From positions 62,001-126,000 of the forward strand of contig NZ_LVYD01000041.1 of NCBI RefSeq assembly GCF_002077945.1: a stretch of DNA of 64,000 bases, in the 5' to 3' direction. The DNA is from Niastella vici (lineage in GTDB: Bacteria; Bacteroidota; Bacteroidia; Chitinophagales; Chitinophagaceae). Numbering within the stretch: the stretch's first letter is position 1; every line of letters begins with the position of its first letter. The position numbers were made by a program, and so were the translations under genes. Below are positions 24,248 to 33,396 of this stretch, piece after piece. The notes beneath the pieces are model-generated. The model was not told the DNA's origin, made no database searches, and saw nothing but the letters and a program-made list of their open reading frames with translations.

Positions 24248-24835
24248 ATGCTGCTAAGCATAAGCACCTGGTGGCAAACCCTTGCCCCTTTTGAAAAAAT
24301 ATTCTGGGGAATTGCTGTTGTGTTTTCTGCCCTTTACCTGATGCAAAGTATATTATCCCTTTCAGGGGGCGATGCAGATCACGCAGCGAGCCACGCAGAT
24401 ACCGCTATTGACCATGATGGGGGTATGGCTCATCAATTCATTACCATCAAAAACATGATCGCCTTTTTCACAATGTTCGGCTGGGCCGGACTGGCCTCGC
24501 ATTACGGCGGCATGAGCAAAACGGCCACTATATTGCTTGCCCTTGCCGGCGGAACGATCGTGGTATTGCTTATGGCCATCATTCTAAAAAATATGAGCCG
24601 CCTTCGTTACAACGGTGCGTTGAAACTAGAGAACGCCATCAATAAAACAGGCAGCACCTATCTTTTTATACCGCCCAATCGCAGTGGTATGGGAAAAGTG
24701 CATATAAAAGTACAGGGTACTTTACACGAACTGCCAGCCATGACAGATGATGATGAAGAAATTGCTACCGGTAAACTCATCAGGGTAAGAAATATCATCA
24801 ATGACCGGATATTACTGGTAACCCTGGCCGGATAA
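24248..24835 (+). CDS. NfeD-like/OB-fold membrane protein, flotillin partner
   Basis: 195 residues: a hydrophobic segment at about 18-40, a His/Asp/Ala-rich loop (GGDADHAASHADTAIDHDGG), two further helices (about 68-112), and a soluble C-terminal beta-rich domain (GMGKVHIKVQGTLHELPAM) that resembles the OB-fold of NfeD/YqiJ-type proteins. Such proteins pair with flotillins, and here the flotillin gene follows after 49 bp, which supports the call. The histidine-rich loop could bind metal, but this is only a guess. Confidence 0.7.
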   Translation: MLLSISTWWQTLAPFEKIFWGIAVVFSALYLMQSILSLSGGDADHAASHADTAIDHDGGMAHQFITIKNMIAFFTMFGWAGLASHYGGMSKTATILLALAGGTIVVLLMAIILKNMSRLRYNGALKLENAINKTGSTYLFIPPNRSGMGKVHIKVQGTLHELPAMTDDDEEIATGKLIRVRNIINDRILLVTLAG

Positions 24836-24884
24836 CAATTCTCATAATATATATTCCAATTTCAAACCCTAAATTAATGACGTT

Positions 24885-26459
24885 ATGGATTACATTTTAA
24901 TTGTGGTCGCGGGAGCGGTATTGTTCCTTTTCATTCTCATTCTCTCCATGTTCAGGCGGTACAAACGATGCCCCAGCGACCGCGTGCTGGTGGTATATGG
25001 TAAAGTAGGCCGAAGCACCGATGGTACAGAAGGCAACCTGAGCGCCAAATGTATACACGGTGGCGCCGCATTCATTTGGCCCGTTATTCAGGATTATTCC
25101 TTCCTTGATCTTACCCCTATTTCCATTGAGGTCAATCTTACCAATGCACTCAGTAAACAAAACATCCGGGTCGATGTGCCTTCGCGCTTTACCGTTGGTA
25201 TTTCAACCGAACAGGGCGTAATGCAAAATGCGGCAGAACGCCTGCTGGGTTTACAACAGGCACAAATACACGACCTGGCCAAGGACATCATATTGGGACA
25301 AATGCGCCTGGTGGTTGCCATGATGGATATTGAAGAGATCAACAGCAACCGCGATAAATTCCTTGCCAACATTGCATCTAACGTAGAAGCCGAGCTGAAC
25401 AAGATCGGTTTAAAAATGATCAACGTAAACGTAACCGATATCAAGGATGAAAGCGGTTACCTTGAAGCGCTGGGTAAAGAAGCATCGGCCAAGGCACTCA
25501 ACGAAGCAAAGAAAAGTGTGGCCGAGCAGGATAGAATGGGTGAAATTGGTAAAGCCATCGCCGAAAGAGAACGCGATGTAAGCATGAAGCAAACCCAGAA
25601 AGAACGGGACGTGCAGATGGCCGAAACGCAACGCGACCGCGACTCCAGCATCGCTGTGGCCGAAAAAGATAAAGAGGTACTCATTGCCGCCGCCAGAAGA
25701 GATGAACAGATCGGTAAAGTGGAAGCCGAAAGGGATACCCGTATTAAATCGGCTGAAGCGAACTCCATTGCGGTTCAGGGTGAAAACCTTGCAAAGATCC
25801 AGATCGCCGATTCTGAAGCCTCCAGAAGAGAAAGAGAAGCGGAAGCCCTGAAGCGGGCCATTGCTGCCGAAAAAGTGCAGGCCGCCAAAGCGTTGGAAGA
25901 AGCCTATCTCGCCGAACAAAAAGCAGAAGCTGCCAGGGCCGACAGGGAACGGGCTTCTCAGAATGCCAACATCGTAGTAACAGCCGAAATACAAAAACAA
26001 AAAGCCATCATTGAAGCACAGGCTGAAGCCGAAAAGATCCGCGAAAAAGCAAAAGGTGAGGCCGATGCCATTTATGCCAAACTGGAAGCAGAAGCAAGAG
26101 GTATGTATGAAATACTGACCAAACAGGCCGAAGGTTTGGATAAGATCGTGAAAGCAGCCGGTAACAATCCGAAAGATGCCGTACTGTTGCTTATCTCAGA
26201 TAAACTGCCCGAACTGGTAAAAATGCAAACAGATGCGATCAGGAATATCAAGATCGACAAAATAACGGTTTGGGAAAACGGGCAGAACGGTTCCGGCAAA
26301 AATTCAACCGCCAACTTTATTTCGGGCATGTACAAGGCAGTGCCTCCGTTAAAAGATATTTTTGATATGGCAGGTATGAACCTTCCCTCCTATCTCGGCA
26401 ATACTAAAAAGGAGGAAGCTACCCCCACTGATGCCATTGTGGTGAAAGACGAAAAATAA
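24885..26459 (+). CDS. Flotillin-family (SPFH domain) protein, YqiK/FloT-like
   Basis: 524 residues. An N-terminal membrane segment (3-22, YILIVVAGAVLFLFILILSM), an SPFH/band-7 domain (about 30-200, with VLVVYGKVGR and VNVTDIKDESGYLEALG), then a long, highly charged coiled coil (about 200-400) made of repeated KERDVQMAETQRDRD-like units, and a C-terminal region with KAAGNNPKDAVLLLISDKLPELV. Flotillins organise membrane microdomains as large cages or rings. It forms an operon with the NfeD-like gene and ends at a strong hairpin. Confidence 0.93.
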   Translation: MDYILIVVAGAVLFLFILILSMFRRYKRCPSDRVLVVYGKVGRSTDGTEGNLSAKCIHGGAAFIWPVIQDYSFLDLTPISIEVNLTNALSKQNIRVDVPSRFTVGISTEQGVMQNAAERLLGLQQAQIHDLAKDIILGQMRLVVAMMDIEEINSNRDKFLANIASNVEAELNKIGLKMINVNVTDIKDESGYLEALGKEASAKALNEAKKSVAEQDRMGEIGKAIAERERDVSMKQTQKERDVQMAETQRDRDSSIAVAEKDKEVLIAAARRDEQIGKVEAERDTRIKSAEANSIAVQGENLAKIQIADSEASRREREAEALKRAIAAEKVQAAKALEEAYLAEQKAEAARADRERASQNANIVVTAEIQKQKAIIEAQAEAEKIREKAKGEADAIYAKLEAEARGMYEILTKQAEGLDKIVKAAGNNPKDAVLLLISDKLPELVKMQTDAIRNIKIDKITVWENGQNGSGKNSTANFISGMYKAVPPLKDIFDMAGMNLPSYLGNTKKEEATPTDAIVVKDEK

Positions 26460-26527: not shown

Positions 26528-27391
26528 ATGCTTGCACCATCTACCATACAACTACTCCGGTTCCATTTTTCTTTCTTTCTGTTACCGGTATACCTATTCG
26601 CTTTAAGCCAGGTGCCAACTATCAATACGGCCCATGCCCTGGTGATCTTTTTCATCCTGCATGTTCTGGTGTATCCTTCCAGCAACGGGTACAACTCGTA
26701 TATGGACCGCGATGAAACGCCCATTGGCGGCATTAAAGCACCGCTGCCACCAACCCGCCAGTTATTTTATACCAGCGTAATTATGGATGTAGTGGCCGTT
26801 TTGCTGAGCCTGTTTATAAGTTACTGGTTTGCTATTTGCATAATAGCCTATATAGCCGCGTCAAGAGCTTACAGTTACCGGGGCATCCGGTTAAAAAAAT
26901 ATCCTGTTGCCGGTTATCTTACTGTTATCTTATTTCAGGGAGCCGTAACGTATTTTATGGTATATCACGGAAGCAGCCTTAACAAAACATTACTGGTTCC
27001 ACCGGCCCATATGGTGGCAGCCAGTTTGCTGATTGGCGGTTTTTATCCGCTCACGCAGGTTTACCAGCACGAAGCCGATAAAAAAGACGGGGTAGTTACT
27101 ATTAGCGCCTTGCTGGGCTACAGAGGCACCTTCATTTTTACAGCTATAATATATTCACTGGCCATGGGTGTGCTGGCCTGGTCGTTCTTCAGCAGGGGCG
27201 AACAAAAAAAATTCCTGGCACTAGCAACTATGATGCTGCCAGTTCTCGTATATTTTTTCAGTTGGGCGGGTTTGGTGTGGAAAGATGTTCGCAATGCCAG
27301 TTTTGCCAATACGATGCGTATGAACATAGTGGCATCCATTTGTACCAACCTGGCTTTCCTTACCTTATTAATCTGGAGGGGATTTGAGTAA
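26528..27391 (+). CDS. UbiA-family prenyltransferase, first gene of a type III PKS cluster
   Basis: 287 residues, polytopic membrane protein with about eight hydrophobic helices. The two Asp-rich motifs of the UbiA superfamily are recognisable in modified form: NSYMDRDETPIGG (residues 56-68) for NDxxDxxxD, and YQHEADKKDGV around residue 180. These bind the Mg-diphosphate of an isoprenoid donor. Members attach prenyl chains to aromatic rings or make related lipids. It overlaps the next gene by 8 bp, which ties it to the polyketide synthase. Its acceptor would plausibly be the product of that synthase, which is inference. Confidence 0.85.
   Translation: MLAPSTIQLLRFHFSFFLLPVYLFALSQVPTINTAHALVIFFILHVLVYPSSNGYNSYMDRDETPIGGIKAPLPPTRQLFYTSVIMDVVAVLLSLFISYWFAICIIAYIAASRAYSYRGIRLKKYPVAGYLTVILFQGAVTYFMVYHGSSLNKTLLVPPAHMVAASLLIGGFYPLTQVYQHEADKKDGVVTISALLGYRGTFIFTAIIYSLAMGVLAWSFFSRGEQKKFLALATMMLPVLVYFFSWAGLVWKDVRNASFANTMRMNIVASICTNLAFLTLLIWRGFE
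27375..27386 (+). promoter_or_regulatory. Shine-Dalgarno and TTG start of the polyketide synthase
   Basis: GGAGGGG (27375-27381) stands just ahead of the TTG at 27384. The next codons read SKIIAIGTA, the typical N-terminus of the family, so TTG is the best start. A strong Shine-Dalgarno is uncommon in this window, so this site helps fix the start and suggests coupled translation with the UbiA gene. Confidence 0.65.
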
Positions 27392-28484
27392 AATTATTGC
27401 CATCGGTACGGCTGTGCCTGCATTCAGGCATAACCAACAGGACATTCTGCAGTTCATGCAGCTGATCTATTCTTATACCGAAGCTGATAAGCGCCGGTTG
27501 CGATTCCTGTACCACCAAAGCCATATTGATACCCGTTATTCGGTGATCCCCGATTACAGCCGTCCTGTTCCGGAATGGAAATTCTACCCGCATACCGAAA
27601 ACCTGGAGCCCTTCCCTTCCCTTGAGCAACGCATGATCTGGTATCACAAATACGCACCGCAATTGTCGGTGAATGCCATTCGTGACTGTCTCGATGGAAA
27701 ATTAACGCAAGCCGAGATCACCCATCTCATTACCGTGAGCTGTACCGGTATGAGCGCACCCGGCCTCGACCTGCAGGTAATGGAATTGCTCGATCTGCCC
27801 CGGCATACGGTTCGTTCTTCCATTAACTTTATGGGATGCTATGCAGGCATTCATGCCCTGAAAATGGCCGACGCTATTTGCAAAACAGAGAAGCAGGCAA
27901 AAGTACTCATAGTTTGCACGGAACTGTGCACGATACATTTTCAACGCGAGCCAACGGTCGACAATATAGCATCGAGCCTGTTATTTGCCGATGGCTGCGC
28001 TGCTGCCCTCATTACAAGCGATGATAACCCGTTAAAGGGGTTGCATATCGATGGGTTTTATTCAGAAGTGATCCCCAAAGGCAAAAAAGATATGGCCTGG
28101 GAAATTTCCTCCACCGGTTTCCTGATGACGTTGAGCAGCTATATTCCCGATCTGCTGGAAGAAGATTTCACCCAGTTTACGAACAGGGCCCTGGCCAATA
28201 CCGGCGTAACCAAAGCAGATATTTCACATTGGTGCATACATCCCGGCGGTAAAAAGATCCTTGAAGCCATTCATAAAACGCTGTCGCTCCAGAATGGTGA
28301 ACTGCAGGCGTCGCATGATGTATTGCAGCAATACGGGAATATGTCGTCCCCAACCATTTTCTTCGTTCTGAAAAAAATAATGCCTGCCCTTTTACACGCC
28401 AACAACCGGAAAGAACACATTTTCGGCGCGGCCTTTGGCCCCGGCCTCACTATGGAAACATTTGTAGCATCAACGAATTCCTAA
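27384..28484 (+). CDS. Type III polyketide synthase (chalcone/stilbene synthase family)
   Basis: 366 residues, thiolase fold. The catalytic triad is visible: Cys152 (INFMGCYAG), His286 (WCIHPGGKK) and Asn319 (GNMSSPTIFF). The GFGPG-type loop near the end is present as FGPGLTMETF. These enzymes extend a starter acyl-CoA with malonyl-CoA and cyclise the chain to resorcinols, phloroglucinols or pyrones. The starter and the ring type cannot be read from the sequence. Context (UbiA, methyltransferase, FAD oxidoreductase, outer-membrane protein) suggests a tailored, membrane-associated phenolic lipid or quinone. Confidence 0.95.
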   Translation: MSKIIAIGTAVPAFRHNQQDILQFMQLIYSYTEADKRRLRFLYHQSHIDTRYSVIPDYSRPVPEWKFYPHTENLEPFPSLEQRMIWYHKYAPQLSVNAIRDCLDGKLTQAEITHLITVSCTGMSAPGLDLQVMELLDLPRHTVRSSINFMGCYAGIHALKMADAICKTEKQAKVLIVCTELCTIHFQREPTVDNIASSLLFADGCAAALITSDDNPLKGLHIDGFYSEVIPKGKKDMAWEISSTGFLMTLSSYIPDLLEEDFTQFTNRALANTGVTKADISHWCIHPGGKKILEAIHKTLSLQNGELQASHDVLQQYGNMSSPTIFFVLKKIMPALLHANNRKEHIFGAAFGPGLTMETFVASTNS

Positions 28485-28495
28485 ACTGGGCAGGC

Positions 28496-29227
28496 ATGTT
28501 TCGCGGGTCAATCAGAAAATCATATATTACAATCGTGAATTTCCGTCACCGATCATACCAGCCCGAATTGCTCGACCGCCCGGATATTCCCTTTGAAGAT
28601 ATTCAAAGGAATATGCAGGAATTAAATTTCATCAACACCTGGCTGGGCGGCCATGCTATTACGGTTACCGGGGTTGAAGCCCTGGTGAATGCGAAAAATC
28701 CGGTCACTATTTGCGAGATCGGGTGTGGCGGTGGCGATAACCTGTTGGCCATTAGGAACTGGTGCAATAAAAGAAATATTCCGGCCGCTTTTATTGGCAT
28801 CGATATCAATCCGCATTGCACCGCGGTAGCTGCCAAACGGTTACTCAGCAATACCCAACTGATCACCTCCGATTATAAAGATGTACAACTGGAAAAGCAA
28901 CCCGATATTATTTTTTCATCCCTGTTCTGCCATCATTTCAGCGACCGGGAAATGGTAAAGCAATTACAATGGATGAAAACGAATGCCCGGCTCGGATTCT
29001 TTATAAACGATCTGCACCGGCACCGGGTAGCATATTATTCCATTAAAGTTTTAACCGCTTTATTCTCGAACAGTTACCTCGTGAAACACGATGCTCCCTT
29101 ATCTGTAGCCCGCGGCTTTACAAGAGATGAATGGTTACAATTTTTCAATATTGCCGGCATCAGTAATTATTCAATTGAATGGAAATGGGCCTTTCGCTGG
29201 CTCATCATCTCCAAAAATGCTGTTTAG
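28496..29227 (+). CDS. SAM-dependent methyltransferase of the PKS cluster
   Basis: 243 residues from the ATG at 28496; a GTG at 28535 (NFRHRSYQPELLD follows) gives a more family-like N-terminus and may be the real start. The class I methyltransferase fold is shown by motif I ICEIGCGGGDNLLAI, an acidic end of strand 2 in FIGIDINPHC, and SSLFCHHF for motif IV. It probably methylates a hydroxyl or ring carbon of the polyketide product. It lies 11 bp after the synthase gene and 10 bp before the oxidoreductase gene. Confidence 0.88.
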   Translation: MFRGSIRKSYITIVNFRHRSYQPELLDRPDIPFEDIQRNMQELNFINTWLGGHAITVTGVEALVNAKNPVTICEIGCGGGDNLLAIRNWCNKRNIPAAFIGIDINPHCTAVAAKRLLSNTQLITSDYKDVQLEKQPDIIFSSLFCHHFSDREMVKQLQWMKTNARLGFFINDLHRHRVAYYSIKVLTALFSNSYLVKHDAPLSVARGFTRDEWLQFFNIAGISNYSIEWKWAFRWLIISKNAV

Positions 29228-29237
29228 AAACTGAATC

Positions 29238-30377
29238 GTGAGCCTTCAACCCAAATATGATATTGCCATCGTAGGTGGCGGACTGGCAGGACTTGCCCTC
29301 GCCATTCTAAGCGCCCGTGCGGGTTATAAAACCGTGTTGTTCGAAAGAGAGAAGTACCCCTTTCACAAAGTGTGTGGTGAATATATCAGCCTCGAAAGCT
29401 GGAACTTTTTGCAGGACCTTGGGCTTCCACTCAGCGATATGCAATTGCCGATCATCAACCGCGTGCTCATTACCACGCCCGATGGCAATTATATTGAATC
29501 GCCGTTACCCTTGGGTGGCTTTGGCATCAGCCGGTATACCATCGATAACCTGCTGGCCAATATTGCCCGCCAGGAAGGCGTAACCCTGCTCGAAGGCAGC
29601 AAAGTGCTCAATGTTGTTTATCGCAACAATACCTTTCTGGTATTTTCAACCAGCGGCGATACCGAAGCAACCGTTGTAGCCGGCGCTTATGGCAAACGGG
29701 GCAACCTCGATATAAAATGGAAACGGCAGTTCACCAAAGTTAAACCCAACAAACTCAATCACTACATCGCCGTAAAATACCACATTCGCACCCATCACCC
29801 CGCCGACCTCATCGCCCTCCACAATTTTGAGCAAGGATATTGTGGAATTTCCCAAATTGAGGAAAACAAATATTGTCTCTGCTATCTCACAACGGCGGCC
29901 AACCTGCGCAAATGCAGGAATGATATTAGCAGTATGGAAAGAGAAATTCTTATGAAAAATCCTTTCCTGGAAAAAATCTTTTCCAATGCTGAAATGTTAT
30001 ACGAAGAGCCGTTAACCATTTCCCGGATCTCGTTCAATAAGAAAACACAGATAGAAAATCATGTTTTGATGATTGGCGATACAGCCGGCCTTATAGCACC
30101 TTTATGTGGCAACGGCATGAGCATGGCCCTGCACAGCAGCAAACTGGCTTTTGAAGAGATCAATTCGTTCCTTCAGGGACGTATCAACCGGTACGAAATG
30201 GAGATCCAGTATACCCAGCAATGGGAAAAATATTTTGGCCGGCGCTTACAGGCGGGGCGTTTATTACAAAGTTTTTTCGGCAACACTTTCCTTTCAAACG
30301 TACTCATAAAAATGGTAAAGCCTTTTCCAAAGTTTGTAGCGTTCCTAATACAACAAACACATGGAAAACCCTTTTAA
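29238..30377 (+). CDS. FAD-dependent oxidoreductase of the PKS cluster (geranylgeranyl reductase/hydroxylase type)
   Basis: 379 residues with a GTG start. The dinucleotide-binding motif VGGGLAGLALAI (residues 12-23) is followed by FEREKYPFHKVCGEYIS, which is typical of the geranylgeranyl reductase-related flavoproteins, and the second FAD motif MIGDTAGLIAPLCGNGM (around 280-296). Members hydroxylate aromatic rings, reduce isoprenoid double bonds or halogenate. Here ring hydroxylation to a quinol, or reduction of the prenyl chain, are both possible. It overlaps the next gene by 17 bp. Confidence 0.88.
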   Translation: MSLQPKYDIAIVGGGLAGLALAILSARAGYKTVLFEREKYPFHKVCGEYISLESWNFLQDLGLPLSDMQLPIINRVLITTPDGNYIESPLPLGGFGISRYTIDNLLANIARQEGVTLLEGSKVLNVVYRNNTFLVFSTSGDTEATVVAGAYGKRGNLDIKWKRQFTKVKPNKLNHYIAVKYHIRTHHPADLIALHNFEQGYCGISQIEENKYCLCYLTTAANLRKCRNDISSMEREILMKNPFLEKIFSNAEMLYEEPLTISRISFNKKTQIENHVLMIGDTAGLIAPLCGNGMSMALHSSKLAFEEINSFLQGRINRYEMEIQYTQQWEKYFGRRLQAGRLLQSFFGNTFLSNVLIKMVKPFPKFVAFLIQQTHGKPF

Positions 30378-31878
30378 ATGGGGGAAATGGTTTTTGCTTG
30401 CATTACTATTACCGCTGTTTCACTTTTATGGAAACGCGCAAAACTATTATGCCATTCAGGGCAGCAACTATGCAGGCAGTCTGGGTATTGGCAATAACCC
30501 CGCCTCTATTGTAAATACACCCTATAAATGGGATATCACGCTTTTTGGAGCACAGGAAAAAAATGCTACCAATGGCATTGTAATACATAAATATTCCCTC
30601 TTCAGCGATCCCAACAAATCGCAATACAACTTCAAAGAAGGCGATTACCGGCGGTATGCCTATGCCGATTACAATGTAAACCTGTTGAACATTCGCTATG
30701 CCATCAACCGCCGGCAGGCCATTGGTTTTGGCATTAACCTGCGGGGCTATGCACAATTAAGCTCAGGTCCGGTAAGGTTTATTGATACGCTTAAAAATGT
30801 AGGCGACTTTTTTGACCTGGGTAATTATAACCGGAAATTGTATGGCGATTTTATTCATGGCAGCTGGATAGAAGTTTTTGCCACCTGGGCGCAAACCATT
30901 TGGGACCGGCCCGATGCGCGGCTGAATGCAGGCATCACCGCGAAGATCTCACGCGGTATTTCAGGTGCTTATCTCAATGTGCTCAACGGAACCGTGGCAC
31001 AAACAATACATGGCAATAATTATGATTACACCATGCAGGATGTTTATGCCGAATATGGCCATTCGGCGAATTATGATCTGTGGCAAAAAGACAAAAGCAC
31101 CAACCAGAACCTGCGTGATTTTTTAACCCATACCCGCGCCGGTTTTTCTTTTGACCTGGGTGTGGAGTATCTTGTCAAAGCGGCACAGGTATCTTCTGTT
31201 TTTGATGAAGACAATTACTACGATTATGACTGGAAGATCGGGTTATCGTTACTGGATATTGGGTTCAACCAATTCAAATATGGTAAAAACAGCCGTATCC
31301 TGAACGGATTCCAGGCCAATATCACTGACACTGTGCTCGATCAGCAATTTGCCAATGTCAAAGACCTCACTGAATTCAATCAACGTGTAGTTGGTATTGC
31401 GGGCACTATACAACAACCAACCGGCATATTCAATATAATAAACCCGGCCCGCCTGGTTTTAAATGTAGACCATTATATCACCGGCGCCTGGTATGTGAAT
31501 GGCAATGCTTCGCTCAATCTTTCTTCACTAAGCGGAAGCCAGTGGCGGCTTACCGAATTGAATATGCTTACCGTTACGCCCCGTTGGGAAACCAGGCGAT
31601 TGGGGTTTTATCTTCCTGTACAGTTCAACATCAAAGAAAATTTATGGGTTGGCGGCGCTGTTAAATTAGGCCCGCTGTTGTTAGGGGTGCATAACTGGGC
31701 CACAGTGTTTGCCAAAAACAAAACGCAAAATGGCGGGGCTTACATTGCCCTTGTCATCAGGCCGGGAAAGAACAATAACTCAGAACAAACTGATAAACGG
31801 CTTGATTGCCCCAGGGGGATAGCACCAAAATTTACCAAAAACCGCCTGGGTCAAAAGTTGAGTTGCCCGCCCCGGTGA
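30361..31878 (+). CDS. Outer-membrane protein (DUF5723-like) coupled to the PKS cluster
   Basis: 505 residues with a signal peptide (cleaved near NAQ, residue 27). The mature N-terminus reads YYAIQGSNYAGSLGIGNNPASIV, characteristic of the large beta-barrel proteins of Bacteroidota related to DUF5723 and PorV/FadL-like barrels. The rest is barrel-like with frequent aromatic and Gly residues. Its start codon lies within the oxidoreductase gene, so it is translated with the cluster. It might carry the product to, or hold it in, the outer membrane; this is inference. The C-terminal 25 residues after the likely last strand are polar. Confidence 0.75.
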   Translation: MENPFKWGKWFLLALLLPLFHFYGNAQNYYAIQGSNYAGSLGIGNNPASIVNTPYKWDITLFGAQEKNATNGIVIHKYSLFSDPNKSQYNFKEGDYRRYAYADYNVNLLNIRYAINRRQAIGFGINLRGYAQLSSGPVRFIDTLKNVGDFFDLGNYNRKLYGDFIHGSWIEVFATWAQTIWDRPDARLNAGITAKISRGISGAYLNVLNGTVAQTIHGNNYDYTMQDVYAEYGHSANYDLWQKDKSTNQNLRDFLTHTRAGFSFDLGVEYLVKAAQVSSVFDEDNYYDYDWKIGLSLLDIGFNQFKYGKNSRILNGFQANITDTVLDQQFANVKDLTEFNQRVVGIAGTIQQPTGIFNIINPARLVLNVDHYITGAWYVNGNASLNLSSLSGSQWRLTELNMLTVTPRWETRRLGFYLPVQFNIKENLWVGGAVKLGPLLLGVHNWATVFAKNKTQNGGAYIALVIRPGKNNNSEQTDKRLDCPRGIAPKFTKNRLGQKLSCPPR

Positions 31879-33024: not shown

Positions 33025-33396
33025 ATGGAAACACCTAATAAAAAGACCCTGGTATTGGGCGCTTCGGAAAATCCGGCCCGGTATAGTTTTTTGGCTATAA
33101 ACAGTTTACGCAGGCATCAACATCCCGTAACCGCAATTGGGCGTAAGAATGGCCGGGTGCTCGATGTTGATATTACTACCGAAAAAAAACCATTGGAAAC
33201 AGTTGACACAGTTACGCTGTACCTGAACCCAACCCACCAGAAAGAATACTACGATTATATACTATCGCTGAAACCGAAACGCATTATATTTAATCCTGGT
33301 ACAGAAAATACTGAATTATATAACCTTGCAAAAAAGAACGGTATTCAGCCATTGGAAGCCTGCACATTAGTTATGCTTAGCACGGGACAATACTAA
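33025..33396 (+). CDS. CoA-binding domain protein (YccU-like)
   Basis: 123 residues forming a single Rossmann-like CoA-binding domain: TLVLGASENPARYSFLAIN at the start, then AIGRKNG, VTLYLNPTHQKEYYDYI and IIFNPGTENTEL. It is the size of the stand-alone CoA-binding family. Function is not established; similar proteins are thought to bind CoA or acyl-CoA. It follows the GbsR-like gene by 56 bp and may share its transcript. Confidence 0.8.
   Translation: METPNKKTLVLGASENPARYSFLAINSLRRHQHPVTAIGRKNGRVLDVDITTEKKPLETVDTVTLYLNPTHQKEYYDYILSLKPKRIIFNPGTENTELYNLAKKNGIQPLEACTLVMLSTGQY

Follow-up and report, generated by a model that had tools for sequence, protein, structure and literature searches.

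A type III polyketide synthase operon with a lineage-specific UbiA-superfamily partner in Niastella vici and its relatives: a candidate route to prenylated phenolic lipids

The window analysed here is a stretch of 64,000 nucleotides from Niastella vici (NCBI RefSeq assembly GCF_002077945.1, contig NZ_LVYD01000041.1, positions 62,001 to 126,000 of the forward strand). Between its positions 26528 and 31878 lies a compact run of genes that includes a type III polyketide synthase (T3PKS) and a membrane protein of the UbiA superfamily. The genes are as follows, with the basis of each assignment in brackets.

26528..27391, + strand: UbiA-superfamily membrane protein, lineage-specific partner of the synthase (PF01040, invariant residues, co-occurrence with the synthase)
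27384..28484, + strand: T3PKS with a TTG start, overlapping the UbiA gene by 8 bp (N- and C-terminal Chal_sti_synt domains, catalytic triad, tree)
28496..29227, + strand: class I S-adenosylmethionine-dependent methyltransferase (MT), 11 bp after the T3PKS gene (PF13649, NCBIfam, position 3' of the synthase)
29238..30377, + strand: flavin adenine dinucleotide (FAD)-dependent oxidoreductase, probably a hydroxylase, with a GTG start 10 bp after the MT gene (Pfam, NCBIfam, fold, synteny)
30361..31878, + strand: predicted outer-membrane barrel protein (OMP), an optional neighbour, overlapping the flavoprotein gene by 17 bp (AlphaFold model, synteny)

All five open reading frames (ORFs) lie on the + strand at these positions, so the five compact genes of an earlier, sequence-only reading of the window are confirmed; the real unit is four genes and a neighbour, the OMP. 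The synthase belongs to the T3PKS family. Specifically, the N- and C-terminal Chal_sti_synt domains (PF00195/PF02797) score 91.6 and 93.1 bits against a cut-off of 27, and the intact Cys-His-Asn triad that had been claimed is indeed there, Cys152, His286 and Asn319 being invariant across 22 aligned homologues. The source genome of 10.06 Mb has this one T3PKS and five PF01040 proteins. The closest named matches of the synthase are from Niastella (85-89%) and Longitalea (87%), and its top solved relatives by profile (Steely1, Ectocarpus PKS1, 7cb3, benzalacetone synthase and Pks18) are all distant. In a tree of 105 rows, made of 100 of the 101 loci offered (L191, shorter than 250 aa, was dropped) and five solved PDB references, the window synthase falls in a clade of 36 rows with a support of 95/96, called clade I here. 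A UbiA gene accompanies 31 of these rows; the five without it fit two losses. As for enzymes of known product, the tree holds only the five distant references, on long branches, and its deeper branching is weakly supported (83/44). The MT matches PF13649, and its nearest NCBIfam model is PRK06202, below the cut-off (NF004851, 122.9 against 243 bits). The flavoprotein matches FAD-binding folds in Pfam and is of the broad geranylgeranyl reductase (GGR)/monooxygenase kind.

Gene order was compared in the best 80 of 321 related loci, a set biased toward close relatives. UbiA stands just upstream of the synthase in 71 of the 75 loci with room for it, and downstream of the synthase we found the MT in 72 of 75 and the flavoprotein in 74 of 74. 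The four-gene order is not due to chance, because it recurs in most of the 80 loci. The earlier expectation that the genes would be conserved together in relatives holds for UbiA, T3PKS, MT and flavoprotein and fails for the OMP. In distant relatives the linkage of MT and flavoprotein is looser. Three loci (L087, L088 and L104) are UbiA-PKS-FAD operons with no MT of this family between synthase and flavoprotein.

The coupling of UbiA and synthase was followed in three genome surveys, in which clade I-type synthases were assigned by score and not by tree. Among 98 genomes of the family, a clade I-type synthase is present in 48: it scores at least 248 bits in 47 of them, and in G033 it is split into two fragments next to a UbiA. 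UbiA occurs in 46 genomes, all of them among these 48, and none of the seven family genomes with only another T3PKS has it. Among 296 genomes of the phylum, a T3PKS was found at E 1e-20 in 135, of which only part were opened as loci; the 21 genomes with a synthase of at least 390 bits are the same 21 that have a UbiA of at least 244 bits. A joint UbiA profile (A6) separates these 296 genomes by a sharp gap, with 48 at 147 bits or more and the rest at 62 bits or less. All 48 have a T3PKS: they are the 21 genomes above and 27 of the 35 T3PKS genomes of group f23, and 87 T3PKS genomes of this survey have no such UbiA. Among 396 genomes of the class, the synthase was found at E 1e-95 in 80 and UbiA at E 1e-40 in 85. 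All 80 synthase genomes have UbiA and 82 of the 85 UbiA genomes carry a synthase, G551 and G676 with a weaker T3PKS beside UbiA. The Fisher value for this co-occurrence, 1.9e-78, ignores ancestry and is not a probability. Thus one UbiA subfamily tracks one type of T3PKS.

The 80 class genomes span 23 family-level groups, to which f12 of another class adds a 24th. Taking one match per genome (second synthase matches of G628 and G708 and second UbiA matches of G406, G628 and G708 were left out), UbiA is upstream on the same strand in 48 genomes and within 1 kb on the opposite strand, always divergent, in 20. It lies within 5 kb on the same strand in four, on another contig in five and far away in three. 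The two of the same-strand four that were opened, G449 and G529, read PKS-MT-FAD-UbiA, with UbiA last. This varying arrangement of UbiA is what shared ancestry does not easily account for. In group f23, whose synthases fall outside clade I, UbiA is on a contig other than that of the synthase in 25 of the 27 genomes and far away on the same contig in G159 and G282; the match in G185 is partial and has one stop. The f23 UbiA proteins (L227-L235) form a divergent branch of the subfamily (YNSxxDKDEGPIGGLK and YPxSQxxQxxED) and are encoded away from the T3PKS operon. At L227, L231 and L234 a frame named by eye as aldehyde-dehydrogenase-like or aminotransferase-like lies within a few kb of UbiA.

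Several known systems combine the same classes of enzymes. Plant cannabinoid-type pathways join a phenol made by a T3PKS to a membrane prenyltransferase of the UbiA type, as we propose for the window, but they use a separate cyclase and are not known to have an MT or flavoprotein of the window's kind. The srs operon of Streptomyces griseus, given as an example in the sequence-only reading, reportedly pairs a T3PKS with a methyltransferase and a flavin hydroxylase, as in the window, to make methylated phenolic lipid quinones. It is said to have no UbiA, and its SrsB is said to be an isoprenylcysteine-type methyltransferase, whereas the window MT matches only class I models. The srs operon remains one parallel (it is mentioned in the part of PMC5916927 used here), and cyanobacterial hid and Planctomycetota operons also count among the nearest studied arrangements. 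The latter unite these three kinds of enzyme in a single operon, in the order MT-oxidoreductase-T3PKS, with no UbiA named in the passages of the paper drawn on; the likeness is drawn at the level of enzyme class. Their T3PKS gave pentadecyl- and heptadecylresorcinols, and adding the MT/oxidoreductase pair led to one methyl group, probably on carbon (PMC10896814, in part). Cyanobacterial hidABC makes hierridins and likewise has an MT, an oxidoreductase and a T3PKS, again compared here by enzyme class, in another gene order. One hid-like cluster, from Raphidiopsis, has a prenyltransferase, a single case of what is the rule in the synthase clade of the window (PMC8086630, in part). The joining of T3PKS, MT and FAD oxidoreductase in one operon, typical of the hid and Planctomycetota systems, is thus found in the window as well. 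In the loseolamycin region of Micromonospora endolithica, UbiA and MT genes lie three and two genes before an alkylresorcinol T3PKS; an acyl-CoA dehydrogenase takes the place of the flavoprotein, only the synthase was activated, and the likeness is drawn at the level of gene neighbourhood (PMC7587189, in part).

From what was observed, namely the genes and the catalytic triad, the conservation of gene order and the coupling of UbiA to the synthase, we infer the starter, the ring type, the methyl position, hydroxylation, prenyl transfer and function as follows. The T3PKS would take an acyl group as its starter, most probably a fatty acyl drawn from primary metabolism, elongate it with malonyl-CoA and cyclise it to an alkylresorcinol-type phenol. 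The MT would methylate the ring on carbon or oxygen, a site suggested by the Planctomycetota and hierridin work, and the flavoprotein would oxidise the ring to a hydroquinone or quinone. UbiA, for its part, would attach, in the membrane, an isoprenyl chain from the prenyl-diphosphate pool of the cell. The Planctomycetota operons, hidABC and the co-occurrence profile of UbiA lead us to read these genes as a pathway to a phenolic lipid that includes a prenylation step of its own. We judge it about as likely to be right as wrong that a membrane prenyltransferase dedicated to the pathway extends an alkylresorcinol-type route here, leading to a prenylated, methylated and probably hydroxylated or quinone lipid. 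A membrane lipid or redox carrier would be a more likely product than an exported compound, because none of the four genes encodes a transporter. The sequence-only reading, too, had seen in T3PKS, MT, flavoprotein and a coupled UbiA a sign of a prenylated phenolic lipid or quinone, which the co-occurrence now supports. It had matched the product to no described compound, and we found no described matching product in the open-access literature either (subscription papers were outside the scope); PMC9248904, searched by term, yielded no passage on type III PKS. As a whole that interpretation is partly supported.

There are observations that weigh against the prenylated lipid. The co-occurrence counts are uncorrected for ancestry, and they are not without exceptions: two of the 48 synthase genomes of the family (G062 and G069) and eight of the 35 T3PKS genomes of f23 have no such UbiA, and among the close loci L108, L110, L114 and L115 have none within the upstream 10 kb (L108, L110 and L114, which were included in the tree, cluster together). 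Conversely, G392, G411 and G618 (L258, L259 and L260) have UbiA without any T3PKS at E 1e-5, and no core gene was found in the 10-13 kb opened around their UbiA. The MT is absent from three of the 75 close loci, those without it named above. Of 16 clade I loci of the phylum survey, some on short contigs, 14 have the MT close by and 12 have the flavoprotein; the opened stretches of G619 and G412 have neither, and that of G718 has no flavoprotein. As regards the starter, T144, C205 and A209 of Pks18 are, as we take it, tunnel residues. The first two are kept in the window synthase as T121 and C182, and the third is F186; a Phe at this position may shorten the starter. Steely1 carries the same Cys-x-x-His-Phe as the window synthase. 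Moreover, UbiA-297 (EboC), a UbiA-like protein of Bacteroidota and other phyla that belongs to the ebo cluster and was tested as a farnesyltransferase, gave no product with phenols or catechols and prefers quinolines (PMC9235831, in part). Finally, prenyl transfer by the window protein is not assured, because Asp residues of ApUbiA are missing from both of its motifs.

More specifically, the window UbiA belongs to the UbiA superfamily (PF01040, 55.5 bits against a cut-off of 34.2), and its motif 1 reads N56xxxD60xD62 and its motif 2 Y173-P174-x-x-Q177-x-Y-Q180-x-x-x-D184. In 24 aligned rows N56, S57, D60, D62, Q177, Q180 and D184 are invariant. The third Asp of motif 1 in ApUbiA is missing (NxxxDxD here, NxxxDxxxD there), and Tyr173 and Gln180 replace the first two of the four Asp of motif 2, also invariantly, with D184 kept. 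The protein therefore lacks the ApUbiA-type Asp-rich motifs of an aromatic prenyltransferase. Named NCBIfam UbiA groups (MenA, heme O synthase, MqnP, EboC and others) match weakly, none over its cut-off; the best is PRK12884 with 30.3 against 269 bits. It is possible that UbiA is coupled to the pathway without being an aromatic prenyltransferase, and that it carries out another membrane reaction (another transfer or a cyclisation) or helps to place the lipid. The weak matches and a motif 1 that retains only N56, D60 and D62 speak for this. However, N56, D60, D62 and D184 are invariant and the DxxxGxxT ending is mostly kept, and heme O synthase, a real prenyltransferase, departs from ApUbiA likewise in the same alignment; we consider such a role unlikely. 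Two other identities were tried for this protein. There is no NCBIfam EboC match at E 0.001, and a housekeeping function is unsupported both by the NCBIfam models and by the other four PF01040 proteins of the genome (heme O synthase, an MqnP/UbiA-like polyprenyltransferase, a GGGP-transferase-like protein and an undefined one). A plasmid search at E 1e-5 returned no match to the window UbiA.

The prenylated product also has to be weighed against a plainer one. Other Bacteroidota, Proteobacteria and Deinococcus have sets of T3PKS, MT and flavoprotein that lack UbiA, which makes UbiA look like something added to the pathway and retained in a single clade of synthases. Such sets, together with the few clade I members without UbiA and the three genomes with UbiA and no T3PKS, would suit a product that is methylated but not prenylated, an alkylpyrone or alkylresorcinol of the srs, bps or hid kind, with UbiA serving a parallel, co-regulated lipid. 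We regard this as decidedly unlikely: all 80 synthase genomes of the class keep UbiA, even the eight in which the gene is distant from the synthase or on a separate contig, and only 3 of the 85 UbiA genomes have no T3PKS. The UbiA-less sets bear on the flavoprotein as well. In a flavoprotein tree of 47 rows (at least 300 aa and at least 150 bits; a quick tree without bootstrap, with 24 of the 31 clade I loci that have UbiA), the proteins of UbiA-less FAD-MT-PKS operons from f3, f5 and f10 of the same class and from G001 and G006 of the window's own family form the sister group of those of clade I, with supports of 87 and 83, while the synthases of these operons are far from clade I in the synthase tree. 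The tailoring enzymes, flavoprotein and MT, have thus had different synthases as partners and do not require UbiA. This exchange of partners is seen at nine loci (L206, L207, L208, L211, L214, L215, L220, L236 and L237), which have the FAD-MT-PKS order with a closely related flavoprotein (345-441 bits), a distant T3PKS and no UbiA. Five plasmid stretches were opened: Roseomonas and Deinococcus have T3PKS-MT-FAD, Psychrobacter a T3PKS facing FAD and MT, Novosphingobium T3PKS-FAD and Microvirga T3PKS-MT with an NAD-binding protein. No UbiA is listed in the five, for which the gene table is incomplete. On a plasmid of Hymenobacter swuensis (L250, 4887-6071) a relative of the flavoprotein (41.7%) has an isonitrile synthase and a TauD/TfdA dioxygenase next to it, with no T3PKS among the listed neighbours.

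The polyketide is a more probable substrate of the flavoprotein than a prenyl chain is, because its family sits with an MT and distant T3PKS in the absence of UbiA. Its fold is common to GGRs, monooxygenases and halogenases, and the nearest solved folds to the AlphaFold model (predicted local distance difference test 87.7) are halogenases mixed with monooxygenases and GGRs. The best NCBIfam match, TIGR02032 (GG-red-SF), falls below its cut-off with 92.9 against 158.8 bits. With this match and the GGR structures among its fold relatives, the enzyme could be a GGR-type protein that saturates the chain added by UbiA, but members of the same subfamily, sister to those of clade I, stand in MT- and T3PKS-containing operons that have no UbiA, and YxWxFP, presumably a GGR motif, is absent from all 21 aligned rows, which leaves this reading very improbable. 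A halogenase function for the flavoprotein, with a chlorinated product, is scarcely credible. Halogenases do lead the PDB sequence and fold rankings, but the fold ranking also holds hydroxylases and reductases, and WxWxIP and GES[LM], which we take to be halogenase motifs, are both absent in the same 21 of 21 rows.

The OMP had been proposed as a coupled member of the cluster, and this did not survive. It is present in only 22 of 69 of the 80 closest loci. Full-length copies (at least 313 bits) occur in 35 of the 98 family genomes, 13 of them without a clade I-type synthase, and in the 22 that have both the two are adjacent in only nine, contig breaks possibly hiding a few. The OMP is therefore a neighbour only. 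It has no Pfam or NCBIfam match at E 0.001, and it is called a barrel on the basis of its AlphaFold model, in which a helix resembling a signal peptide and numerous long strands are seen (predicted local distance difference test 74.3). A commoner neighbour is a gene with a CoA-binding domain, at 33025-33396 of the window, 3' of the operon. Such a gene follows the flavoprotein within 6 kb in 38 of 60 loci with room, at distances of 48 to 5856 bp, a pattern resembling ordinary synteny. Directly upstream of the operon (24248-26459) are a 195-aa ORF without a Pfam match and an SPFH/Band 7 gene; the latter was found upstream in seven of the 68 loci where there was room for it, every one of the seven from Niastella or Longitalea, as well as in G029 and G071. 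Promoter-like sites (13 found, 11.3 expected) and terminator-like sites (11 found, 7.1 expected) are uninformative.

To our knowledge, most type III PKS products of Bacteroidota have yet to be described. Genome mining of Flavobacteriaceae, a related family and not that of the window, ranked type III PKS clusters second in frequency among biosynthetic gene clusters (9%), behind terpenes (PMC7440613, in part). With a UbiA partner dedicated to one large T3PKS group, a polyketide-isoprenoid hybrid is the product to be expected from that group. This gives a narrow mass-spectrometric prediction, namely that multiples of C5H8 are lost in a ubiA mutant. The UbiA subfamily with its unusual metal-binding motifs also offers itself for enzymology. 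As far as we know, menaquinone is the one quinone generally attributed to Bacteroidota; a quinone product, if that is what is made, would give the phylum a redox carrier of polyketide origin as well. A wider possibility, tentative and in our view doubtful, is an undescribed bacterial class of polyketide-headed isoprenoid quinones, in which a T3PKS ring would replace chorismate, UbiA would add the tail, and MT and flavoprotein would finish the molecule as in ubiquinone, giving an extra membrane redox carrier or antioxidant to about 24 family-level groups of Bacteroidota. If this is true, the pathway would be, by its enzyme logic, a bacterial counterpart of the cannabigerol-type meroterpenoids.

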